Source: Nostoc sp. NMS9 (GTDB taxonomy: Bacteria > Cyanobacteriota > Cyanobacteriia > Cyanobacteriales > Nostocaceae). From it: a DNA stretch of 64,000 nt. The stretch lies in the NCBI RefSeq assembly GCF_017114995.1, contig NZ_JABXKL010000060.1:62001-126000 (forward strand). Reading direction: 5' to 3'. Below, one piece after another: positions 37,228 to 57,208 of the stretch. Each line of letters opens with the position of its first letter. Position 1 is the first letter of the stretch. A program made the position numbers and the translations under genes. The notes under the pieces are model-generated. The model did no database searches and had not been told where the DNA came from. It saw nothing but the letters and a program-made list of their open reading frames with translations.

Positions 37228-40200
37228 TCACCAAGGATTACCAACCATTGTAAATCCAGCCCAATAATAAGGATGTATAAGTGATTCATCAGCACTGTCA
37301 GCAGGTAAAGGCAAATTCCCAACTATTCCTAAACCTTGCACTTGTCCATCCTTTACATAAATTTGCCCTTTGACCATAGCTACCTGAGCCTGTCTGAGAG
37401 CTTCTGCTTTAATTGGCGCTGTCTTTAAGTTCTCATAAAATTTTGTCATCAACGCTGCTGTGCCAGCATCATTAACCGACCAAAGACTAGCAACACTAGT
37501 TTTCACACCTGCCAGCACTGCTAAACCCGCAAATCCCAGTTCGGATTCTTCATCCCCTAAAGCTGTTCTACAAGCACTCAGCACCAGCATTTCAACTTCA
37601 GGTTCATTCAAGCGCAACTGTCGTAATTGGTTCAAGCGTAACTTGTCTTCCCACAGTTGAATATAGGAATTACTTAAAGCACCAGTAGCAAAATCGGCAT
37701 GGGTTGCCATGTGAATAATTCCAAAAGGTTGTTGGCGGCGGATTGTTTTGAGATTTTCTAAGGTGGCTTGCTTGTCTAACAATAATTTGCCCTGCCAGAG
37801 TTTAGATACTAGTGTTGATAACTCAAGGGGGACTGCTGGTAAAGGCTCTTGTCCCTGAGTACTCTGAGAAACCCCCAGCGCTAAAATTTGAGATTTTTTT
37901 ATGTCTTTATAGAGGGTATTAGTCAAACTAAGACTAGGCATTAAGCCAATGCTGTATTTTTCTACTAGAAATCCCTTACCATCGTGAAGTGCTGCCATTG
38001 GGGTTGAACGTAACCCAATGTCTGGTAAAAAGACCAGATTGTTGATTCCTCTCGCCTGTAAATCTGCCTCTAGTGGTGCAATAATCCAGCGATAAAGTTG
38101 TTGAGATGAACGCAAATAACCGGTGCGACGACGGTTTTGTGGACTAACGATTTGGTCACGAAATTCTTGAGCTACTTGGAGAACTTTGGCTTTAGTTGTT
38201 TCTGGGATGCGCTTGCGGATAGGATCGCCTTTTCCGGTTACTACTACTATTTCTAGTTGGTCACTATCCTTTTCTCCTATGGTATTTAACTGTTTCGTAA
38301 ATTTTTTAGCTTTGCCTAAATTTACCTCTGGTAGAATTTCCACAGGGACAAAACTGATGTAGATAAATGCAGGTTTTACACCAGTAGCTTCTTCAATTTT
38401 GCGAGCAATTTCTTTGGCATCATCTAGGGTTTTGATTCTAGGGCTGGGTATGCCTAAATGGTCGGCAAAATCATCTGTGAAATTGTCTTCGGGAGTGGGG
38501 TCGGTATTAAGAACGGGGTTATCAATCTTAGGATTATTGGGGACAGGGTTATTTGGTTTATCTGGTAGATTGCATTGGAATGTGCAGGGGTCAGGATTCG
38601 GAGTATCAGGATTCGGAGTAAAAGTCGGGGTAGGAATTGGGGTAGGAATTGGGGTAGGAGTCTGACTGACGTTGATTCCTATCTGTACAGGTGCAGAAGA
38701 GGAAACGCCGTCATTTGCACTAATTACAAAGGCATTTAGTGACCCATTCGTATCTGCTAGAGGTGTGTATACCAAAGTATCGCCGCTAGATAAGGTAGTA
38801 ATACCAGGGATGACAGGAAGTCCATTCACAGTCAGATTTCCCGTATTCACCAGATCAACCTTGATGGAGGTGATGTCATTATTAGCATCGCTGATCAGTG
38901 GAGCCAAACTAGAGAACGTCAAGGTCACTGGTTGATTAGTCTGGGTATCGGGTAGCGATGAGTTTGCCGTTAATGTTGGCGGGGTGTTAACGGAAGTAAT
39001 GGTGATGCCGGTTGGTGTGCCGCTAGCATCTCCACCATTAGGCAAGACTGGAAAGTTCCCAGAAGGAATGATTGAACTCCCTCCTGCATTAATTGTTGCG
39101 GCTATGCCATTGACACTCGTTGCATCACCTACGACAAATGGGACATTATCTGCGCCACCATCATGTCGAATTGTGACAGTACCTCCTACAGGAGGCGCAA
39201 AGCTATTAACAATCACGAAAGGTTCAACGATCGCAGCAATACCAACTTCTCCCCCCTCATCAGGATTGTCAATAACATCAGGATTGTCAATAAAAACTCC
39301 TCCGGTAGCGATCGTCTCACCTGTAGAAGTTATCCCTGTCCCTTGAACCAAACCGTTTGTTAACACTTGCACATTGCCACCTTTGACAATGTTTGCATCA
39401 CCAATATTTGTTGCGCCCCTAGTGTCAATGCTGCTAAAACGAATTGTGCTGCCAGCAGTATTCGTAGTTTGTAGAGTAACGTTGCCACCTGTAGCGCTTG
39501 CATCACCATCCACTCCAGTCGCACTTGCTGAGGCATCAATAGCCCCATTAACGGTGATATTATCTCTGGCAGTTAAACTAATCGCGCCAGCAGTGCCGAT
39601 AAAATCGCCACCTCCTTCCTTGACTACAGATGAGTTAATTGCTCCTGTGGTAATACTGCCGCCTGTGGTTGTTGCGACTACATCGCCAGCCCTACCTGAG
39701 CCATTAGCATCATTTGAAGAAGAGTTAATAGTACCTGTGAAGATGTTGCCTGCGGCAGTCAAACTTACTGTTCCCGCATCTGTAATAATAATGCCACCAT
39801 ATCCAAATCCAGAAAACCCTTGAATATTGTTAGTGTTTAGGTTATTTAGGGTAATTGCACCATTTGTGCTTTGGACTGTAATATTACCCGCAGAGTAGCC
39901 CTGACTACTGGCAATAATGTTGCCCGCAATGATATCACCACTCGCAAACAAGGTTATATTGCCACTATTCCCACTTACATCACCATCCACTCCAGTAGCG
40001 CTTGCTGAGGCATCAATAGCCCCATTAACGGTGATATTATCTCTGGCAGTTAAGCTGACCGCGCCAGCTGCGCCGATAAAATCGCCACCTCCTTCCTTAA
40101 CTACAGATGAGTTAATTGCTCCTGTGGTAATACTGCCGCCTGTGGTTGTTGCGACTACATCGCCAGCCCTACCTGAGCCATTAGCATCATTTGAAGAAGA

Positions 40201-42885
40201 GTTAATAGTACCTGTGAAGATGTTGCCTGCGGCAGTCAAACTTACTGTTCCCGCATCTGTAATAATAATGCCACCATATCCAAATCCAGAAAACCCTTGA
40301 ATATTGTTAGTGTTTAGGTTATTTAGGGTAATTGCACCATTTGTGCTTTGGACTGTAATATTACCCGCAGAGTAGCCCTGACCACTGGCAATAATGTTGC
40401 CCGCAGTGATATTGCTAGTTGCAAACAAGGTTACATTGCCACTATTCCCACTAGTTCTACTTGTATTTAAATTTCCCAGCGATAAGCTAGCTCCTGAAAT
40501 GTTAATCGCTCCTCCAGTTGTCTGGATTGTGTTGGTGGGATTGACAAAGTTTACAGAACCAGTTTGTGAGGACAGGTTAAAGCTTCCACCACCCAAGTTT
40601 AATGTAGCGATACCAGGAGTAGTCACTAAGGGCGTATCCCCGGTGATGTCATTGATGGTAATGTTGCCTGTGGCTTGTAAGTTGATATTTGTACCTGAAG
40701 CTGCGATCGCACCCCAAGAAACAGTATTAGCCCCAATATCTGCATTGTTAAAGGCAATATTGCCTGCTGTGGCATCAAATGTCCCTGTCCCACCATCGAT
40801 AATGGTCAATGTGCTGGGGTCTAGCAATAAAGTGCCAAAGTTGCCATTAACGGCTGAAGTATCTACCAAACCGTTGAAGGTCAAGAAATTTTTGCCTGAT
40901 ACTTCTACAAAACCACCATTGCCAGCATTTGCTCCTCCACGAGCCGAAATGTTACCAAAAAACTTGGTTGTGTCGTTACCCCAAACAATTACCCGTCCGC
41001 CATTTCCATTCAAATTGCTATTAGCATTAATGACGGATTTTGAGTCTACATAAGTCCGATCTGCATTGGGTAAAGTCCCCTTACCTTGATAATCTCCACC
41101 AATTAGCACAGTACCGCCGCCATTGTTTCCAGAGGCGTTAATATTGGCATCAATCACCGCGACTTTTTTACCCAAAGCAGTTACAGTACCGCCTGTTTGA
41201 CTCGCTGCATTCACTGTCCCAGAAACAATCGTTGTACCTGGAGTTGTGGGAATTATTACATTAGAGCCTGTTAATTTTACCGTTCCATCAGGATTGGCAG
41301 TTAACCCTGTGTTACCAACTGTCAGCAGTTCTGGTAAAGAGGCGATGGGAATTGTCCAGTTATTGGGTTGGTTGCTACTAGAGGCGAGGGGCTGAATTTC
41401 TAGACTTAAAAGATTTCCTGGCTGACTAAGACGCACCCAATTTTGTCCTGGTACTGATGTAACGGCAATCTGCCCTCCAGGTGCTGAAAGTTGCCCGGTG
41501 TTGATTACATTTCCAGCTAATAAATTCAAATTTTGCCCAGTACCTACTGCCAAATTTCCAGCATTTGCGATCGCTCCTGGCTGGTTTGTACTAAAGGCAA
41601 ATCCGTTGGGGTTTCCCACTAAAGCATTGTAGTCATTCACACCAATGGCGTTAAACCAACTGCTGCCGAAGCCAATGCCGTTAGCTGTTGTCACCGTAAA
41701 AGTACCAGGCACATTTAAACTAGCGTTTGCTCCAAAAATAAATCCGGCTGGATTCATCAAGAAAAGGTTAGCATTGCCACCTGTCACTTGAATTAAACCA
41801 TTGATAACCGAGGCATTCCCGCCTGTAATTCGACCAAGAATATTTTGCAGCGCCGGACTAGCTTGAAAGTTGGCGATTTGTTCTGGTGAAATCCCAAATT
41901 GTTGAAAGCTGTGAAAGAGGTTTGCACCATCTTTAGAAGTTGTGCCGCCAGTGATATCAAGTCGATTGCCGTTTGGTGTAACAATTGTGTTTGTGCCATC
42001 GGCAGCAGGAACTATTTGTTGTGCTTGGGCTAATCTGGGACTTACCAGCGAGGCAATAACTAGGACTGAAGCGGCGATATTAGACAATAAAGATTTTTTG
42101 CGCCGCAATATAAAGCGACCTGTGGGCAATTCTACATCGATTTGTAACTTATCTGCTAATCCGCGTCGCCAAAGTGCTTGAGCGATCGCTCGCTTAGACC
42201 AGAGGATTTGTTCTGTTCTTTTGGTGACAGAGATGCTTTGAGAATGATTCCGGTAGAGGTAGAGTGGCTCTGGAACTCGGCGCACTTGGGCTACTTCTGA
42301 AAGTCGCAGACATAGGTCATAGTCTTGGGCACAGAGGAACGACTTGTTAACACCTCCCACCCGGTCGTAAACCCACCGTCGAATCAAGCGGAAGTGAAAC
42401 GTCATGAAGTTTACTAAAAGACCTTCTGGGGAATAGGGAATGGCACAGCGATGACCGTAACCGATCACTTTGCTGTCTCGATCAATATTTAAGTAATCGG
42501 TGTAAACAAATCCTGTATCTGGATGGCTGTTGAGGACTTTAGCAGTTTGGGCAAGGGCAGTGGGGGCTAGGATATCATCACTGTCTACCAGACCGATGTA
42601 AGTGCCATTAGTTAGGTTGATTGCTGCTTTAAGTGCCGCCGTATATCCTTGATTGTGTGCTTGGACTAGCCGCACTCGCCCATCTTGTTGAGCATAATTG
42701 TTTGCGATCGTCACCGATCTGTCTGTAGAGCCATCATCCCAAATTAGTAGCTCAAAGTCTTGCCATGTCTGCGCTAAGACGCTAGCGATCGCTTCTTCAA
42801 GGTAAGACTCCCGGTTGTAATTGACGATGACAATGGAAATCAGTGGTGACATCGAAGTTTTCCCAAGTTTTCTACCTGTTACCAC
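37228..42885 (-). CDS. TpsA-like exoprotein fusion: GT2 glycosyltransferase, FHA secretion domain, beta-helix, CHAT protease
   Basis: This single 1885-residue frame has four parts. Residues ~12-255 are a GT2 glycosyltransferase (ISIVIVNYNRESYLEEAI, WDDGSTDRS, LVDSDD). At ~260-291 an RRKK start, hydrophobic core and AQAQQ form a typical signal peptide. Residues ~292-420 are a haemagglutination-type TPS secretion domain with LFLMNPAGFIFGA. A repeat-rich beta-helix (with a 159-residue tandem duplication), an Ig/cadherin-like segment and a Pro/Thr linker follow. The C-terminal ~330 residues are a caspase-like CHAT domain with His in IIHMATHADF and Cys in LVLSACRTAL. TTG at 42108 would start translation exactly at the signal peptide. 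The divergent neighbour is the matching TpsB pore. Confidence 0.88.
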   Translation of the reverse strand: MVTGRKLGKTSMSPLISIVIVNYNRESYLEEAIASVLAQTWQDFELLIWDDGSTDRSVTIANNYAQQDGRVRLVQAHNQGYTAALKAAINLTNGTYIGLVDSDDILAPTALAQTAKVLNSHPDTGFVYTDYLNIDRDSKVIGYGHRCAIPYSPEGLLVNFMTFHFRLIRRWVYDRVGGVNKSFLCAQDYDLCLRLSEVAQVRRVPEPLYLYRNHSQSISVTKRTEQILWSKRAIAQALWRRGLADKLQIDVELPTGRFILRRKKSLLSNIAASVLVIASLVSPRLAQAQQIVPAADGTNTIVTPNGNRLDITGGTTSKDGANLFHSFQQFGISPEQIANFQASPALQNILGRITGGNASVINGLIQVTGGNANLFLMNPAGFIFGANASLNVPGTFTVTTANGIGFGSSWFNAIGVNDYNALVGNPNGFAFSTNQPGAIANAGNLAVGTGQNLNLLAGNVINTGQLSAPGGQIAVTSVPGQNWVRLSQPGNLLSLEIQPLASSSNQPNNWTIPIASLPELLTVGNTGLTANPDGTVKLTGSNVIIPTTPGTTIVSGTVNAASQTGGTVTALGKKVAVIDANINASGNNGGGTVLIGGDYQGKGTLPNADRTYVDSKSVINANSNLNGNGGRVIVWGNDTTKFFGNISARGGANAGNGGFVEVSGKNFLTFNGLVDTSAVNGNFGTLLLDPSTLTIIDGGTGTFDATAGNIAFNNADIGANTVSWGAIAASGTNINLQATGNITINDITGDTPLVTTPGIATLNLGGGSFNLSSQTGSVNFVNPTNTIQTTGGAINISGASLSLGNLNTSRTSGNSGNVTLFATSNITAGNIIASGQGYSAGNITVQSTNGAITLNNLNTNNIQGFSGFGYGGIIITDAGTVSLTAAGNIFTGTINSSSNDANGSGRAGDVVATTTGGSITTGAINSSVVKEGGGDFIGAAGAVSLTARDNITVNGAIDASASATGVDGDVSGNSGNITLFASGDIIAGNIIASSQGYSAGNITVQSTNGAITLNNLNTNNIQGFSGFGYGGIIITDAGTVSLTAAGNIFTGTINSSSNDANGSGRAGDVVATTTGGSITTGAINSSVVKEGGGDFIGTAGAISLTARDNITVNGAIDASASATGVDGDASATGGNVTLQTTNTAGSTIRFSSIDTRGATNIGDANIVKGGNVQVLTNGLVQGTGITSTGETIATGGVFIDNPDVIDNPDEGGEVGIAAIVEPFVIVNSFAPPVGGTVTIRHDGGADNVPFVVGDATSVNGIAATINAGGSSIIPSGNFPVLPNGGDASGTPTGITITSVNTPPTLTANSSLPDTQTNQPVTLTFSSLAPLISDANNDITSIKVDLVNTGNLTVNGLPVIPGITTLSSGDTLVYTPLADTNGSLNAFVISANDGVSSSAPVQIGINVSQTPTPIPTPIPTPTFTPNPDTPNPDPCTFQCNLPDKPNNPVPNNPKIDNPVLNTDPTPEDNFTDDFADHLGIPSPRIKTLDDAKEIARKIEEATGVKPAFIYISFVPVEILPEVNLGKAKKFTKQLNTIGEKDSDQLEIVVVTGKGDPIRKRIPETTKAKVLQVAQEFRDQIVSPQNRRRTGYLRSSQQLYRWIIAPLEADLQARGINNLVFLPDIGLRSTPMAALHDGKGFLVEKYSIGLMPSLSLTNTLYKDIKKSQILALGVSQSTQGQEPLPAVPLELSTLVSKLWQGKLLLDKQATLENLKTIRRQQPFGIIHMATHADFATGALSNSYIQLWEDKLRLNQLRQLRLNEPEVEMLVLSACRTALGDEESELGFAGLAVLAGVKTSVASLWSVNDAGTAALMTKFYENLKTAPIKAEALRQAQVAMVKGQIYVKDGQVQGLGIVGNLPLPADSADESLIHPYYWAGFTMVGNPW
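39501..40454. repeat. Tandem 477-bp duplication inside tpsA
   Basis: CATCACCATCCACTCCAGT begins at 39501 and again at 39978, and the two 477-bp units are nearly identical over their full length. Each encodes 159 residues of beta-helix, so the frame is kept. The near-identity implies a recent duplication or ongoing gene conversion. Confidence 0.9.
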
Positions 42886-43266: not shown

Positions 43267-45087
43267 ATGAGAAAAGAAACAGAAACTGGTGTTCAGCCTA
43301 GAGCAACGACTCAGCAAAGAAGTGTCTATTTCTCTCATCAGTTAGACACCTGGCAGAGTTTGGCAACTACTAAATGCAGTAAGCACAGTTTCAGTTTTTG
43401 GTGCGGCTTGCTAATTCTGCCTGCGGTCTGGATTGTAACTGCAAATGGACTTAGAGCTACAGCTAATATTTTTACACCAGACTCGATTCAAAATAGCAGT
43501 CAGTCAGAGTTACAAATAGTACAGGAAACACAACCTGTCCCGGCAACTAACCCGAACCCACAACCAGAAACACCACAACGCATTCGGGTTCGGAAAATTC
43601 AGGTTGTAGGTAGCACAGTTTTTAAGGAAAATGACTTTAATCCAGTAGTGAAACCGTTTGAAGAACGGGACTTAACTTTAGAAGAAATTAGACAAGCCGC
43701 AGATGCCGTTACTCAGCTTTACCTAAATAAAGGCTATATAAATTCCAGAGCAATTCCAGACACTCAACAATCAAGTACCGCAGATGGTGTTGTGGTAATT
43801 CAGGTGTTGGAAGGACGTTTGACAGAGATTGATATCGAAGGGACGCGGCGATTAAACCCATCTTATATTCGTAGTCGCATTCAGCTAGGTGCTGGTATTC
43901 CTCTGAATACTGGTAAGCTCGAAGAACAGTTGAAATTATTGCGACTCGATCCCTTATTTACCAATGTGGAAGCGAGTTTGCGTCCAACGGGTCAGGTTGG
44001 TCAAAGTATTCTCGTTGTCAGAGTTGAAGAGGCAAAAACTTTAATTGGTAGTTTGGGTGTAGATAATTATTCGCCTCCCAGTATTGGGGCGGAAAGATTG
44101 GGTGTTGAATTGCGATCGCGCAATTTAACTGGTATGGGAGATGAGTTAGCAGGCTCTTATTACCATACACTCTCTGGTGGTTCTGATGTCTTTGATTTTA
44201 GTTATCAGGTTCCCGTGAACGCCATGAACGGCAAAGTGCAGATTCGAGCCGCATTTAATCGCAACGAAATTACTGAGCCACCCTTTGATGCCTTTGAAAT
44301 TCGGGCAAACCAGGATCTTTATGAAATCAATTATCGTCAACCATTGATGCGATCGCCCAAAGAAGAATTTGCCCTATCTTTAGGATTTACCTATCAAGAT
44401 GGTCAAACCTTCCTTTTTGATAACCTCGCAACCCCCTTTGGCATTGGGCCTGATGCCAATGGCGTTAGCCGCACCAGTGTAATTAAATTTGGTCAAGATT
44501 ATATCAGGCGCGAACCTCAAGGAGCTTGGTTTTTGCGATCACAATTTAATTTTGGCATTGATATATTAGATGCAACTATCAATAATGATCCCATACCCGA
44601 TGGTCGCTTTTTCAGTTGGCTAGGTCAAATACAGCGCGTGCAGCAACTGAGTAACGATCATTTATTGCTCATCCAAGCAGACTTACAGCTTACACCAGAT
44701 AGCCTTTTACCTTCCCAGCAATTTGTCATTGGCGGTGGACAATCGGTAAGGGGATATCGCCAAAATATCCGTTCCGGGGATAATGGATTTCGGGTAGCGA
44801 TCGAAGATCGGTTTACAGTGCAGCGCAATGAATCTGGATTCTCTACAATTCAACTTGCGCCATTTCTAGACATGGGAGCCGTCTGGAATCAGTCTGATAA
44901 TCCCAATCCGCTACCCAATCAAACTTTTTTGGTGGGCGCAGGCTTAGGATTATTGTGGAATCAGGCAATGGGAATTGATAATCTCTTTTTGCGGCTCGAT
45001 TATGGATTTCCATTTATCGATCTGAGCGATCGCGGTAATAACGCTCAGGATGATGGCTTTTACTTTAGCCTTCGCTATCAACCTTAG
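43267..45087 (+). CDS. TpsB, two-partner secretion pore (FhaC/ShlB/HecB family)
   Basis: This 606-residue outer-membrane Omp85-superfamily transporter should export the TpsA-like neighbour. After an N-terminal leader with a hydrophobic segment (~residues 45-60), a Pro-rich stretch is followed by two POTRA domains (RVRKIQVVGSTVF and then LTEIDIEGTRRLNPSYI). The C-terminal beta-barrel contains the conserved loop-6 motif SVRGYRQN. The last residue region (FYFSLRYQP) is a typical barrel-closing strand. It is divergent from tpsA across 381 bp, so the pair is probably co-regulated. Confidence 0.92.
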   Translation: MRKETETGVQPRATTQQRSVYFSHQLDTWQSLATTKCSKHSFSFWCGLLILPAVWIVTANGLRATANIFTPDSIQNSSQSELQIVQETQPVPATNPNPQPETPQRIRVRKIQVVGSTVFKENDFNPVVKPFEERDLTLEEIRQAADAVTQLYLNKGYINSRAIPDTQQSSTADGVVVIQVLEGRLTEIDIEGTRRLNPSYIRSRIQLGAGIPLNTGKLEEQLKLLRLDPLFTNVEASLRPTGQVGQSILVVRVEEAKTLIGSLGVDNYSPPSIGAERLGVELRSRNLTGMGDELAGSYYHTLSGGSDVFDFSYQVPVNAMNGKVQIRAAFNRNEITEPPFDAFEIRANQDLYEINYRQPLMRSPKEEFALSLGFTYQDGQTFLFDNLATPFGIGPDANGVSRTSVIKFGQDYIRREPQGAWFLRSQFNFGIDILDATINNDPIPDGRFFSWLGQIQRVQQLSNDHLLLIQADLQLTPDSLLPSQQFVIGGGQSVRGYRQNIRSGDNGFRVAIEDRFTVQRNESGFSTIQLAPFLDMGAVWNQSDNPNPLPNQTFLVGAGLGLLWNQAMGIDNLFLRLDYGFPFIDLSDRGNNAQDDGFYFSLRYQP

Positions 45088-47061: not shown

Positions 47062-47685
47062 ATGACGCAGCGACTGACTCAAGAACAATTATCACAAATA
47101 GTTACAGAAGTAGAAGGTCTGCAATTGCGTCGGGAAGCAGAACTAGACCAACAGCAGCTGAGAGAAATTTTACAGGAGTTGAATTTACCGCCAGAGTTAC
47201 TAGATGAAGCGCTGATTCAGTTAAATCGCCGCCAAGCACTGGAAGTACAACAACGCCGCAATCGATGGATTACCTCTGGAGTCGTGGTAGTTATAGTGGT
47301 TGTCATTGCATCTACAATATTTTTCATGCAGCAGCAAAGTTCAAGACTTTCCCGTGTTTATGCTCAACAAGACCGCATCACTTTGACACAAGATAATGGC
47401 GGCGACTTAAAGACAATTTCCCGCCAAACCAATCCAGAAGTGTTGTATCGTGTCACCTTAAAGGATGCACCTTTGGGTAAAAAGCTGGCTCTCTCTTGTA
47501 ATTGGATTGACCCAAGTGGTCAAATTGTCAAGCAAAACAATTATCAAACCCGTGAGATTAATACGTCTGTCTGGGATACCCAGTGTCGCTACACTATTAA
47601 CCCGGCTGCAACTGTTGGCAATTGGCAGGTGCAGATGTTCCTAGAAAGTCGGCAGATTAGCGATGCAACCTTTGAAGTTAAATAG
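47062..47685 (+). CDS. Single-pass membrane protein of unknown function
   Basis: The 207 residues have three parts: a charged helical N-terminus (TQEQLSQIVTEVEGLQLRREAEL, read in parts), one strong membrane helix at about 70-90 (VVVVIVVVIASTIFF), and a beta-rich C-terminal domain (RVTLKDAPLGKKLALSCNW to WQVQMFLESRQISDATFEV) resembling DUF3859-type domains. AGGAG lies upstream of the ATG. The stop is only 5 bp before the next gene, so it is the first gene of a four-gene run that includes an asparagine-synthetase homologue and a decarboxylase homologue. Confidence 0.75.
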   Translation: MTQRLTQEQLSQIVTEVEGLQLRREAELDQQQLREILQELNLPPELLDEALIQLNRRQALEVQQRRNRWITSGVVVVIVVVIASTIFFMQQQSSRLSRVYAQQDRITLTQDNGGDLKTISRQTNPEVLYRVTLKDAPLGKKLALSCNWIDPSGQIVKQNNYQTREINTSVWDTQCRYTINPAATVGNWQVQMFLESRQISDATFEVK

Positions 47686-47690
47686 TCCAG

Positions 47691-49463
47691 ATGGGTATCC
47701 CGCATCACTTTCTTGGCTATTGGGGTTACGGCACTCAACAGGAGTTGGAAACGCTGTTAACTAGTGTTGTGGAAAACCTTTCTTTTAGAAGGCGAGAGGC
47801 TTTGAAGTTTTCTGCACAGAAAAATAATCTTGTTCCCATCTGGAATGTTGTTTACATAGGACTCGATGGCAATTCCCCGCCGCAACAAAATCAAATTGCT
47901 GCCATCTTTGCATCAGGATTATTTACTTCACCTGATGCTTGGGTAAATCTCCAGGAAAATAACTGCCTAATTTTGGGAAGAGAACCTTTCGGAAAAGTGC
48001 CTTTGTATTGGACTCAGCAAGGACAAATAATCTGGTTTGCATCCCAACTGCAACTACTTTTACCGATTTTGCAACAGTCAGAAGTTAGCATTCCTGGGTT
48101 ATATGGTTATAGCTGTTTTTCTTACGTTCCCACACCCTTAACTCCTATTAATGAAGTGTTTGCAGTGACGGCGGGAACTGAATTAGTTTGGCAGAGCGAT
48201 CGCCAATCAGGTATTCTGAAAACACCTGAATCTAAAAAAATCCACTCGTGGCGGGAAGCGCCAGAACAGTTAACAGATGAAGCTACAGCAATTACCGAAT
48301 TGCAAACTCTCCTTAAAAACTCCATTGAGCGACAAATTGCCGATTTAAAAGATGAGCCTGTCGGGGTGTTTCTCTCTGGCGGACTCGATTCTTCAGTGGT
48401 GGCGGCGCTGCTGGTACAAGCAGGGGTGAAAGTCCGCGCCTACACTTTAGATTTTGGTGATGCAGGTATTCCAGAATATCTCTATGCGGAACAAGTCGCC
48501 GAGTTTATCAAAATTCCGCTAATTAAAGTTGCAGTAACCCCCAGTTCAATCGAGAATGCGCTAATTCCGACTGTGCAAGCATTGGATTTGCCCTTTGGAG
48601 ATGGCGTGTGTATTCCGTTGTATCTTCTATCTCAGAGGGCGAGTCAGGAAACTCAGGTAATTTTTAACGGTGAAGGTGGAGATCAATTATTTGCCGGTTG
48701 GACGAACAAACCTTTAATTGCCGCAAGTGTTTATCAAGCAGAAAATCCCGCTGGACAAGAAACTTTTATCCAGCAATATCTCCGCACCTTTCACCGTCTT
48801 GGGGGATACGAATCTCAAGTTTATCAGCCGGAGGTTTATGTACAGATCCAAAATTTGCATCCTGAAGATTGGTTATTGGCGGCTTTAGATCGCAATGAGT
48901 GTCCATCTTTGCTGCATCGCCTCCGCCGTGCTAGTTTGATGCTCAAAGGAGGACAGAATATCCATCCCCGTGCGACTGCATTGGGGTTTGCTCATGGGTT
49001 GTGGGTGCGATCGCCTTTTTGTGACTTACCTTTAGCTGAGTGGACATTCCGCCTCTCTGGAGAACTCTGTTTGCAGGGTGCTTGTGAAAAATATATCCTC
49101 AAACGGGCTGTAGAAAATTGGCTTCCACCCGAAATTGTCTGGCGACAAAAACGTGGTATGGGGGTTCCTTTAACTTCTTGGTGTTTAAATGATTTTTGGC
49201 ATCAACTCGGCATTTGGCTCAATCCAGAAATACTTCGCGCCAACAATCACTTTTATCCTCACATCGCGGCACAAATCGTTGAAGGCAAACTGGGAGCAGC
49301 TATTCAAGGCCGTCGAATTGGTGAAACACTCTGGTTATTAATTATGTGGCAACTTTGGCGATCGCACGTTTTAAATGAAAAACAAAGTAAACAATCTTGG
49401 GATCATCCCTTTTGGTTACATCGTTGGCTATGGAGAAATTTCAAAATAATTCGTAATTCGTAA
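47691..49463 (+). CDS. Asparagine-synthetase-like ATP-dependent amidotransferase without the glutaminase Cys
   Basis: The 590 residues keep the synthetase half: the PP-loop GVFLSGGLDSSVVAALL at ~225, NGEGGDQLFAGW, and the C-terminal helical domain with RQKRGMGVPLTSW. The N-terminal glutaminase-like domain survives in outline (LGREPFGKVPLYW), but the protein begins MGIPHHFLG. It therefore lacks the Cys-2 nucleophile needed to release ammonia from glutamine. In known relatives, loss of this Cys marks enzymes that adenylate a carboxylate and use another nucleophile, such as beta-lactam and carbapenam synthetases. It is 10 bp from the next gene, so the substrate may come from that partner. Confidence 0.82.
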   Translation: MGIPHHFLGYWGYGTQQELETLLTSVVENLSFRRREALKFSAQKNNLVPIWNVVYIGLDGNSPPQQNQIAAIFASGLFTSPDAWVNLQENNCLILGREPFGKVPLYWTQQGQIIWFASQLQLLLPILQQSEVSIPGLYGYSCFSYVPTPLTPINEVFAVTAGTELVWQSDRQSGILKTPESKKIHSWREAPEQLTDEATAITELQTLLKNSIERQIADLKDEPVGVFLSGGLDSSVVAALLVQAGVKVRAYTLDFGDAGIPEYLYAEQVAEFIKIPLIKVAVTPSSIENALIPTVQALDLPFGDGVCIPLYLLSQRASQETQVIFNGEGGDQLFAGWTNKPLIAASVYQAENPAGQETFIQQYLRTFHRLGGYESQVYQPEVYVQIQNLHPEDWLLAALDRNECPSLLHRLRRASLMLKGGQNIHPRATALGFAHGLWVRSPFCDLPLAEWTFRLSGELCLQGACEKYILKRAVENWLPPEIVWRQKRGMGVPLTSWCLNDFWHQLGIWLNPEILRANNHFYPHIAAQIVEGKLGAAIQGRRIGETLWLLIMWQLWRSHVLNEKQSKQSWDHPFWLHRWLWRNFKIIRNS

Positions 49464-49473
49464 TTTTTGGTAA

Positions 49474-50691
49474 ATGGTATCAAATAATTTAACTCAAAAT
49501 CGCCTTAATCCCCCATTCTCCAGGGAACTTGCTCAGGAGTTACTGAATAACTACGGTTCTCCGCTTTACGTTTATAATGGCGATCGCTTGCACGAAACTA
49601 TTGAGCGGATTAGCAAAGCAGTCGGTTATCCGCGCACGCAATTTCGGTTTGCAAGCGTTACTAATGGCAACATTGCGCTGTTAAAAATTTTTCGTTCATT
49701 TGGGTGGGGACTTCACGCTAATACGCCAGGAGATATTTATTTAGGATTGCAAGCTGGTTTCGATCCGAGTGAGATTGTTTATAGCGGCAGTAATTTGAAT
49801 CAAGCTGAGATGCTACAAGTCCTGAATTGGGGAGTTACAACTCTCAATCTCGATAGCCTCGCTCAGTTGCAGTTGTGCTGCAAAGTTTTACCCAAACACA
49901 AAGAAAAATCTATTCGGCTAGGTTTACGCCTCAATTTGCCAGAAATTACTGGAGATAGCCGCATTGGTGTACGCCCAGAGGAATTTGGTGATGCGATCGC
50001 TTTAACTGGTGAGGCTGGATTAAAGCTGAATGGTTTACACTTCTATCGAGGTACGGGAACTAACGCCACAGCCGCTTTTACCCAAGCGATCAATACAGTG
50101 ATTTCCACAGCACAAAAGTTACCAGATTGGGAATATTTAGATTTTGGTGGTGGTTTTGGCTATCCTTATCACCACAACAAAACAGCCTTTGACTGGGAAA
50201 TATTTGGGGCTGAGTTAACCGAGAGAATTACTCGTTTAGGGCGGGAAATTGATTTGGTAATTGAACCGGGACGAAGTGCGATCGCTGGATGTGCAACTTT
50301 GCTGGCTCAAGTTGTTTCGGTGAAATGGCAAGGAGAAAAACAGATTGTTGGAGTTGATACCACCGTTGCTAATCTTTCAGTACCCTCAGTACACGGCGGC
50401 TACCGAGAAATTATCACCTGGAAGCAAACAGACAATCCATTCACAACTGATATTTGTGGTAATACCACATATTCACGAGATTATCTGGGGAAAAATTGCC
50501 AACTCCCAGTTTTAGAAATTGGCGATATTGTTGCCATTCTAGATGTCGGTGCTTATGGTTATGCAATGTCGTCTCACTTTTTACATCGCCCCAAACCTGC
50601 GGAAGTATTGCTAGAAAATGGCACGCATCGCTTGATTCGTCGGCGGGAAGATTACAGTGTTTTATTAACAAATCAGGTGTTAGATAACTAA
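49474..50691 (+). CDS. DAP/ornithine-decarboxylase-like fold III protein lacking the PLP lysine
   Basis: This 405-residue protein follows the LysA-type barrel plus C-terminal domain: LYVYNGDRLHETIERI, GLHANTPGDIYLGLQAGF, FGGGFGYPYH, the phosphate site VIEPGRSAIAG, a Cys region (DICGNTTYSRDYLG) and GAYGYAMSSHF. At the usual PLP-Lys site (Y-A-x-K-A-N) it reads FASVTNGN, so the Lys aligns with Val-62. All other landmarks are kept, which argues against simple decay. It could bind a ligand without decarboxylating it, or use PLP differently. The genes on both sides are 10 and 15 bp away. Confidence 0.8.
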   Translation: MVSNNLTQNRLNPPFSRELAQELLNNYGSPLYVYNGDRLHETIERISKAVGYPRTQFRFASVTNGNIALLKIFRSFGWGLHANTPGDIYLGLQAGFDPSEIVYSGSNLNQAEMLQVLNWGVTTLNLDSLAQLQLCCKVLPKHKEKSIRLGLRLNLPEITGDSRIGVRPEEFGDAIALTGEAGLKLNGLHFYRGTGTNATAAFTQAINTVISTAQKLPDWEYLDFGGGFGYPYHHNKTAFDWEIFGAELTERITRLGREIDLVIEPGRSAIAGCATLLAQVVSVKWQGEKQIVGVDTTVANLSVPSVHGGYREIITWKQTDNPFTTDICGNTTYSRDYLGKNCQLPVLEIGDIVAILDVGAYGYAMSSHFLHRPKPAEVLLENGTHRLIRRREDYSVLLTNQVLDN

Positions 50692-50706
50692 CATCAAATA
50701 ACCATT

Positions 50707-51972
50707 ATGAAGTGTATTAACTGCGGGACTGACAATAAACTGAAAGACCGGATAGCTAATCAAGGTCGGTGTTTAAAATGCAATCATCTCTTTGCCTTTG
50801 AGCCGACTAGTATGAGTAATGTTCAAATTACTGATCCTTTTTTTGCAAAGGCGATCGCTGACATTTCTGCAAATAATACCTTATTTTTTACACCTAAGCA
50901 ACTACTTTATTTTCTAGATAATCGTCTAAGAAAAAACTCAAAGTCAATTTCGCAATTGGGCTGGTTTTTTTTCTATGTATTTTTTAATTTCTTTACATTT
51001 GCTGTTATTATTGGGCCACTGATAGTCAATCTTGTGTTTATTTGGATATTCTTTAATCGGAGTAGCTCAAGCAAGCTCAATAATACAAGTCGCAAAGCAA
51101 GCGCTAAAAATTTACAAATTATAGGAGGAATTGTTCTAGTTGTAGGAATTTTAATAAGTCTTGCATCCAAGTCATTTAGCCTCTTTGTCACTATTGTGAT
51201 TATGGGAATGCTGTCTATATATTTAGGAACTCGACAACTAGGACGAATTGGATTCTTAACACAAGAATTTTTACTTTCACAATCTCAGGTTAAAGATTGG
51301 CTAGATCGTTGGCAACAAATTAATGGTTCAATTCTCAAAATTCTTCCTTCTCCAAAGCAGGAAAATACACCAGCCACGATTAATCCTGACGTAACAGCTT
51401 ACAGTTTTGATAGATTAGTCGTTTGTGATACTGCTAGTATTGCTCAACTATTAATTGCTAATAATTTTCACTTTGAAAACAACTGTGCAATTCTCAGCAT
51501 TACTGGATATCCCCAAAGTATTTTTGACACTACAATGCAAATGCTGCGCCGCAATCCCGATTTGAAAGTCTATGCAATACATGATTGCAATCCACGAGGA
51601 ATTGGTTTAGTTCATAATTTGAGAACCAATGCTAATTGGTTTCTCAATAGTGAGATTGTGATTATTGATATTGGACTAACGCCACGTCAAATTATCGCTA
51701 CTAAGCGCGGAATGTTCATTCAATCCTCTCCAGAGTCGGCGCAAGCAGCTAAACAATTGCCTGAAGAAATACGTCAAAATTTATCTGCTGAAGAATTAAC
51801 ATGGTTAGAATCTGGAAAGTTTGTGGAATTAGAATCTTTCACTCCTCAAAGAATAATTAAAGTCCTGCAAAAGGGTATTGCTGGCAGCCAAACTTTAGAA
51901 AGTGATGACAGTAGCTTGCTTTTAGTAGGCGATACAGGAAATGATATGTACGTTGTTCAAAGTTTTGGTTAG
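50707..51972 (+). CDS. Zinc-ribbon membrane protein with a Toprim-like C-terminal segment
   Basis: This 421-residue protein is of unknown function. It opens with a zinc ribbon (MKCINCGTDN and then GRCLKCNHLF). Two to four membrane helices follow at about 88-175 (FFYVFFNFFTFAVIIGPLIV; IIGGIVLVVGILISLA). The soluble C-terminal half has DRLVVCDTASIAQLLI, ILSITGYPQ, a VYAIHDCNPRGIG motif and VIIDIGLTPRQI. The D-x-N-P-x-G pattern resembles the Toprim site of topoisomerase VI-like and DUF2399-type proteins. It is 15 bp after the decarboxylase homologue and is probably the last gene of the run. Confidence 0.7.
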   Translation: MKCINCGTDNKLKDRIANQGRCLKCNHLFAFEPTSMSNVQITDPFFAKAIADISANNTLFFTPKQLLYFLDNRLRKNSKSISQLGWFFFYVFFNFFTFAVIIGPLIVNLVFIWIFFNRSSSSKLNNTSRKASAKNLQIIGGIVLVVGILISLASKSFSLFVTIVIMGMLSIYLGTRQLGRIGFLTQEFLLSQSQVKDWLDRWQQINGSILKILPSPKQENTPATINPDVTAYSFDRLVVCDTASIAQLLIANNFHFENNCAILSITGYPQSIFDTTMQMLRRNPDLKVYAIHDCNPRGIGLVHNLRTNANWFLNSEIVIIDIGLTPRQIIATKRGMFIQSSPESAQAAKQLPEEIRQNLSAEELTWLESGKFVELESFTPQRIIKVLQKGIAGSQTLESDDSSLLLVGDTGNDMYVVQSFG

Positions 51973-56563: not shown

Positions 56564-56699
56564 TTATAAAGGGGGGAAACAAGAAATTTAGTTCCCTCGC
56601 CGTATGTATTGGGGAGGGCTAGGGTGGGGTATTTTTAATGCTCTGTTAAATAACCACATATTACTGAGCAAAAATCAAAATATTCTTCCCTGTAGGAAC

Positions 56700-56923
56700 T
56701 TCCGTCTTCACGTTTCCGTGTTCCGCGCAGTCTGTAGCAGCTTCCGCCTTGACGTTTCCGTGTTCCGCGCAGCCTGTAGCAGCTTCCGCCTTGACGTTTC
56801 CGTGTTCCGCGCAGTCTGTAGCAGCTTCCGCCTTGACGTTTCCGTGTTCCGCGCAGTCTGTAGCAGCTTCCGCCTTGACGTTTCCGTGTTCCGCGCAGCC
56901 TGTAGCAGCTTCCGCCTTGACGT
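56700..56923. repeat. 42-bp tandem repeat array (five units plus a partial)
   Basis: TTCCGCCTTGACGTTTCCG starts at about 56700 (variant), 56742, 56784, 56826, 56868 and 56910, an exact 42-bp period. Units alternate CAGTCTG and CAGCCTG. Both strands stay open through the array; the minus frame reads a 14-residue SRRKLLQAARNTET repeat. There are no unique spacers, so it is not CRISPR. Confidence 0.92.
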
Positions 56924-57208
56924 TATCAGAAACAGACTTGTGTTACAGCATCTTCCCTTAAATAGAACAGGCTTTTGAGGTACAGCACTGCTGTGCCTCG
57001 ACAATAAATATGGTTTCAATTGGCAAAAAATGTTGTAGGGGATTTAAATTTAAAGTGCATCGCAAAACCTAACCTTATATTTTAAGAAAAGCAAAACCAT
57101 TTTGTCTCATTCCCAGTCTGAGAATGGGAATGAGGTTTTAAAAGAGTTTTAACTTATAGTTGATACCAATTACAGCAGTTTTTTGACTTTTGCAAGAGGT
57201 CTAGTCTA

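Follow-up and report, generated by a model that had tools for sequence, protein, structure and literature searches.

Four open reading frames (ORFs; g1 to g4) on contig NZ_JABXKL010000060.1 of Nostoc sp. NMS9, together with a fifth gene (g5), belong to a set of genes that hints at an undescribed attachment to a protein C-terminus. We tentatively propose, with rather less than even confidence, that the five genes constitute a system built around a membrane-anchored g4 protein, in which the exposed C-terminal end of g4 (...[DEQ]-S-F-G) would be the chemical attachment site for AsnB-like ligases (g2 and g5), with the LysA-like g3 protein handling the attached group. The stretch of DNA analysed (henceforth 'the window') is 64,000 nt long and contains g1 to g4; all coordinates below are those of the window unless otherwise indicated (aa, amino acids; PLP, pyridoxal 5'-phosphate; pLDDT, predicted local distance difference test).

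47062-47685, plus strand: g1, 207 aa, N-terminal part helical and C-terminal part beta-rich
47266-47328, plus strand: the single hydrophobic segment of g1, residues 69-89
47691-49463, plus strand: g2, AsnB-like ligase without the glutaminase Cys, 590 aa (PF00733, 8.1e-58)
48375-48395, plus strand: PP-loop of g2, SGGLDSS, the ATP site, kept
48669-48701, plus strand: GEGGDQLFAGW of g2, with Gln and Trp at the putative places of the Glu-Tyr dyad (mapped from motif spacing)
49474-50691, plus strand: g3, LysA-fold protein without the PLP Lys, 405 aa
49648-49671, plus strand: FASVTNGN of g3, with Val62 (49657-49659) at the place of the PLP Lys (clade rows, Val in 30/31 and Met in 1/31; LysA rows, Lys in 11/11)
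50038-50058, plus strand: HFYRGTG of g3, with Tyr191 at the His of HIGSQ (clade rows, Tyr in 31/31; LysA rows, His in 11/11)
50461-50481, plus strand: NTTYSRD of g3, with Thr332 at the catalytic Cys of CESGD (clade rows, Thr in 31/31; LysA rows, Cys in 11/11)
50707-51972, plus strand: g4, 421 aa, zinc ribbon, hydrophobic helices, Topo VI-A/Spo11-like Toprim domain and disordered acidic tail
50713-50781, plus strand: zinc ribbon of g4 (C3, C6, C22 and C25, all four invariant in 53 aligned copies)
51346-51897, plus strand: Toprim region of g4, residues 214-397
51898-51969, plus strand: acidic tail of g4, residues 398-421, ending in QSFG (pLDDT <50 at 400-421)

With all four ORFs on the plus strand and gaps of 5, 10 and 15 bp between them, g1 to g4 probably form a single operon, as the original prediction, which was made from the window's letters alone, had suggested. 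That prediction described a four-gene unit with membrane proteins at its flanks. The four genes are confirmed, and hydrophobic stretches, which from their sequence are predicted to be membrane helices, are present in g1 (for which no Pfam family scored above cut-off) and in g4; but the prediction had overlooked a fifth gene and also the tail with which g4 ends, and g4, which carries an invariant C-terminal Phe-Gly (FG), is more than a flanking protein.

The fifth gene, g5, encodes a second AsnB homologue without the glutaminase Cys, is ~27-31% identical to g2 and often lies near g4 in the neighbourhoods of relatives. When 386 genomes of the phylum were searched (thresholds of 1e-60 for g3 and g2, 1e-20 for g4, 1e-10 for g1 and 1e-50 for g5), matches were found in 35 genomes for g3, 33 for g2, 38 for g4, 31 for g1 and 40 for g5, and all five were present in 30. 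Genomes with g3 shared g2 in 33 cases, g4 in 35, g5 in 34 and g1 in 30; since g2 is present in 33 of the 35 g3 genomes, the linkage goes beyond chance (Fisher p <1e-37 for each of six gene pairs, shared ancestry being ignored), and g2 and g3 are conserved together, whereas the opposite result would have refuted the original prediction. Conversely, g2 was only ever found alongside g3 (33/33 genomes) and 30 of the 31 genomes matched by g1 also contained g3, while g4 and g5 form the most widely kept pair (37 genomes in common). Among the named loci, which are the best 80 of 423 g3 matches in genome contigs and all cyanobacterial by title, g2 was detected in 73, g4 in 78, g1 in 69 and g5 in 53 (some stretches end early), and the order g1 g2 g3 g4 followed by a convergent g5 was seen in 32. 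A single locus of Calothrix sp. PCC 7103 contains all five, and g2 and g3 are present in Cylindrospermum stagnale PCC 7417. The complete five-gene set is also carried by the conjugative plasmid Cy782202 of Gloeothece verrucosa PCC 7822. As for partial sets, the g2 match is absent from G360 and G010, the g1 match from G278 and G044, and the g1 and g5 matches from G123, where pieces of g2 and g3 lie in one 620-aa frame; in G004, G018 and G038, g4 and g5 lie side by side with no g3 match, and the members are split over three places in G174. Stop codons occur in all five genes of G385, and of g1 to g4 only g1 remnants are left in G149. An AsnB-family search of the window's own genome returned g2, g5 (in two pieces) and a third match on C27, which covers 59 of 354 model positions.

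Both ligases lack the residue that defines glutamine-dependent members of their family. The N-terminus of g2 is MGIPHHFLGYWGYG, without the Met-Cys-Gly (MCG) start, and this start is absent from all 91 g2 frames and all 77 g5 frames of >480 aa in the loci collected; the loss of the glutaminase nucleophile from g2, noted originally in one sequence, thus extends to its relatives. The pattern of the PP-loop is present in 76/77 g5 frames and in 90/91 g2 frames (in the twelve commonest g2 forms), the motif GEG[GS]DQLF in 79/91 g2 frames (the other 12 are off-pattern) and GEGGDP in 77/77 g5 frames. Against the AsnB model TIGR01536, which has a cut-off of 267.1 bits, g2 scored 182.4 and g5 216.6. With its score below the cut-off and its nucleophile missing, g2 appears to be something other than an ordinary asparagine synthetase, which also agrees with the original prediction.

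The g3 protein retains the fold of LysA, since both the fold-III barrel and the C-terminal beta domain (two ornithine/diaminopimelate/arginine decarboxylase domains) are present, and it matches TIGR01048 with an E-value of 6.6e-74, although its score (248.9 bits) lies under the LysA cut-off of 297.9. Where LysA has YAxKANxN, g3 has FASVTNGN, so that the claimed loss of the PLP Lys is confirmed. The motifs GGG, EPGR and GAY are kept. The three replacements (Lys by Val, once by Met; His by Tyr; Cys by Thr) are shared by all 31 aligned rows of the g3 clade, other phyla included, the ratio of non-synonymous to synonymous substitution rates (dN/dS) is 0.10-0.13, and an intact LysA is encoded elsewhere in 10/10 genomes checked; for these reasons we consider that g3 is not a decaying gene. 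The Lys-less clade, which databases name diaminopimelate decarboxylase in several phyla, is probably misnamed. A clade with the motif HYAIVCNKN is present in Hyalangium, Blastocatellia, Armatimonadota and Acidimicrobiales. Plasmid records searched with a distant g3 at 1e-40 gave Gloeothece and two Mesorhizobium records; searched with the window's g3 at 1e-35 they gave seven, the four additional ones being 26.5-29.1% identical. Phage records gave 13 matches of <60% identity, the ten listed being 23.7-32.5% identical and the named ones LysA, and a scan of viral contigs gave no relative. One Mesorhizobium huakuii plasmid (NZ_CP050298.1; L157) has a gene whose LysA-like product bears the annotation alanine racemase and has Met in place of the Lys; its neighbours are radical-SAM, DegT aminotransferase, TldD-related and sulfatase genes and not the five-gene set.

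A constant feature of the set is the end of g4. All 69 non-redundant full-length g4 copies end in FG, as do 115 of the 124 g4 profile matches; the remaining 9 are either short fragments or extend into Ns. As a control, the commonest pair of last two residues was counted in the other proteins and accounted for 32/54 g1, 8/49 g2, 8/78 g3 and 6/55 g5 copies, that is, these ends are variable. FG-ended frames of the form [DEQN][STN]FG that the g4 profile did not match numbered six in 2.2 Mb of loci, compared with 0-13 for eight control motifs; the six include a remnant of g4 in L071. The Toprim fold of g4 is of the Topo VI-A/Spo11/JetD type (structural second look at residues 83-183 and 214-406), the family match itself being weak (25.2 bits versus a cut-off of 24.1). 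Its DxD motif is degenerate: the window's copy has HDCNPRG, 15 other rows have HD or HN followed by A/C and S/N/T, and none of them has DxD; two Streptomyces relatives keep HDAD. Tyr68 is conserved in at least 90% of 53 copies and stands at the putative place of the Spo11 motif Tyr; the limited structural look at that part showed no full winged helix. When the window's own genome was searched for another copy of the N-terminal part of g4, all matches had E >=0.116. A second zinc-ribbon g4-like frame, in some cases truncated, is present in L087, L097, L102, L106, L121, L131, L132, L133 and L183.

A variant of the set on a plasmid of Streptomyces sp. NBC_01237 (NZ_CP108509.1, an unannotated record) bears on the nature of the tail. 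Here, three g4-like proteins lie in tandem, two of them with a visible N-terminal zinc ribbon and none with an FG end. Next comes a 179-aa protein that has a hydrophobic segment and a Gly/Asp/Ser-rich end (...AWSDDDFG), and after it a g5 homologue, which shares 41% identity with the g5 of the window's genome. The 179-aa protein and one of the g4-like proteins have no match in any other plasmid record. Because the tail occurs on this separate protein, and because one Desmonostoc has a 106-aa copy consisting of zinc ribbon and tail (identical in L077 and L182 and counted once), the results suggest that the FG tail is a separable part.

How could these proteins work together? That an AsnB-like enzyme with a dead glutaminase site accompanies a fixed C-terminal Gly suggests that the g4 C-terminus is adenylated and transferred to an amine. 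In the scheme we propose, g5 would be the core ligase, binding ATP at its PP-loop, adenylating the carboxylate of the C-terminal Gly of the tail and then transferring the activated Gly to an amine other than glutamine-derived ammonia. A further amide bond would be formed by g2 as a second layer; g3, which could not form a Lys-PLP aldimine, would bind or work on the attached amino acid or amine rather than decarboxylate free diaminopimelate, and g1 would be a membrane accessory of the cyanobacterial version. There is precedent for the components: AsnB-like enzymes that act on peptide C-termini are described in PMC13060819, and LysW, a zinc-ribbon protein with a fixed C-terminal motif, serves as an amino-acid carrier according to PMC10433800. 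While gene content, linkage, residue changes, purifying selection, folds and the FG end are observations, the chemical steps and the role of the tail as a substrate are what we infer from them. A more specific version, in which the Phe-Gly end of g4 would be joined to an amine (an amino acid, polyamine or lipid head group) in the manner of ubiquitin-like or Atg8-like conjugation but by a different ligase, with g3 presenting or reshaping the amine, appears unlikely to us. After processing, Atg8/LC3 ends in Phe-Gly, and with an AsnB-like ligase here the system would therefore be a convergent solution if this version were true.

Several results weigh against an attachment site. Five AsnB-like enzymes, E. 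coli AsnB among them, reportedly share a conserved Glu-Tyr dyad, and changing its Tyr to Phe abolished the activity of PesC (PMC13060819). The dyad seems to correspond, by our own mapping from spacing, to the Glu and Tyr of GEGSDEVFGGY, and these places are occupied by Gln and Trp in g2 and by Pro and Pro in g5, which speaks against the known carboxylate site having simply been copied in either ligase. The g5 of the window's genome is unlinked to g1 to g4 (G000:C95:39661-41499; L144:8659-10500), and it is 21 residues longer than its G125 orthologue owing to an in-frame insertion between KAVLKQAI and RPKSGM, close to the catalytic Lys motif. In G087, G116 and G011, g5 occurs alone without a g4 match (the G011 copy is interrupted by an insertion sequence, with transposase-like frames inside), and no FG-ended partner of known kind was found near it. 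No g3 match at 1e-3 is present in the 35 kb around the Streptomyces variant. The residue preceding SFG is Gln in 33/115 copies, therefore an acidic side chain at this place is not the site. Finally, an exact C-terminal motif is equally compatible with a docking site.

Docking is the main rival and almost as good an account, although we regard it as somewhat doubtful: the FG tail would bring g3 or the ligases to g4 at the membrane, and the substrate of the enzymes would be a small molecule. The acidic C-terminal tip of the single-stranded DNA-binding protein SSB is a docking peptide of this sort, and a disordered acidic linker with a short conserved tip on g4, the hydrophobic segment of the separate Streptomyces tail protein and the apparent absence of the known carboxylate dyad from g2 and g5 all fit such a role. 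Docking tips are, however, often tolerant of related residues, whereas both F and G are kept at the very end of all 69 g4 copies. The guess offered originally, an amide- or lactam-forming pathway, now stands as one reading among several and an improbable one; g2 and g5 would join carboxylates and amines, g3 would supply or bind an amino acid and g1 and g4 would hold the enzymes at the membrane. Cys-less AsnB homologues do make beta-lactams and lasso rings (PMC13060819), and the solved structures related to g5 include the 7ylz hydroxyamidotransferase, CarA and beta-lactam synthetase, but the neighbourhoods of 20 loci share no further biosynthetic gene and the FG end is left unexplained. When the neighbours in those 20 loci were clustered by similarity, other families seen in at least three were each seen in three only. 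A family of proteins of ~490-590 aa that begin with a Cys-rich part (MEVYCTRPGCPRPQNYF in L042) lies near the set in three of them (L042, L048 and L052).

Still less probable, in our view, is a signalling, regulatory or defence system in which g4 would be the effector through its Toprim domain, with a signal made or sensed by the enzymes. The Topo VI-A/Spo11/JetD-like fold of that domain, the conserved Tyr68, a patchy distribution and the presence of the set on a conjugative plasmid would suit this role. Against it, DxD is degenerate in the aligned cyanobacterial g4 proteins, even though HDAD occurs in the two Streptomyces relatives, and a known anti-phage defence system can be rejected: a PADLOC 2023 search gave only the shared QueC fold for g2 (5.1e-6) and g5 (0.0097) and nothing for g1, g3 and g4. 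The automatic names (asparagine synthetase B family, diaminopimelate decarboxylase family protein) would imply an ordinary asparagine synthetase beside a decaying copy of LysA. We reject this very improbable reading on the strength of the missing MCG in all g2 copies, the dN/dS of g3, its three replacements in 31/31 clade rows at places that are intact in 11/11 LysA rows, and the co-occurrence of the set.

Elsewhere in the window, a 1885-aa frame on the minus strand (37228-42885) combines a GT2 glycosyltransferase, a TPS secretion domain and a C-terminal CHAT domain, and near it, on the opposite strand, lies a gene for a ShlB/FhaC-type transporter (43267-45087, plus strand). A tandem repeat with a 42-bp unit (5.6 copies, 96% matches) occupies 56690-56924, with frames open on both strands.

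No description of the five-gene set was found in the open-access literature, subscription journals being mostly outside the search, and the original statement that no pathway with this gene set had been described stands within that scope. In PesC, TsrC, ScdTA and the lasso cyclases, as in g2 and g5, an AsnB fold with a PP-loop stands beside a protein with a fixed end, and a peptide carboxylate is the proposed substrate; PesC, however, takes nitrogen from glutamine, whereas g2 and g5 lack the glutaminase Cys and seem to have replaced the Glu-Tyr dyad (PMC13060819). With 46.2 (g2) and 154.7 (g5) bits, both proteins fall far short of the lasso peptide cyclase model (NF033535; cut-off 525 bits) and were rejected as members on that ground. 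The LysW/ArgW system resembles the set: it, too, has a zinc-ribbon protein whose C-terminal motif is conserved, a ligase of its own and a paralogue of an amino-acid enzyme (PMC10433800). The N-terminal Cys residues of the LysW type are present in g4 and form a putative zinc site, but g4, at 421 aa, includes hydrophobic helices as well as a Toprim domain and ends in FG instead of EDWGE, and the ligases are AsnB-like and not LysX. Compared with LysA (and BtrK), g3 has its PLP Lys, His and Cys replaced and scores below the LysA cut-off; compared with Topoisomerase VI A, Spo11 and JetD, g4 adds hydrophobic helices before the Toprim domain, a zinc ribbon and the FG tail, and its DxD is degenerate. 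The exosortase-A-associated amidotransferase and decarboxylase (TIGR03108 and TIGR03099), which are paired in one locus, likewise bring an AsnB-like protein and a fold-III decarboxylase-like protein together in one system, and were rejected as candidates with 161 (g2) and 226 (g5) of 816.9 bits and 111.7 (g3) of 478.45 bits. Overall, the set has the defining features of none of the families tested and is new as an assembly of parts, its function being a guess: two textbook enzyme folds without their defining catalytic residues are maintained by selection alongside a Spo11-like Toprim protein of unchanging C-terminus. Should the FG end be an attachment site, this would be a new activation of a C-terminus by the asparagine-synthetase fold; should it be a docking site, the enzymes would still need new chemistry.

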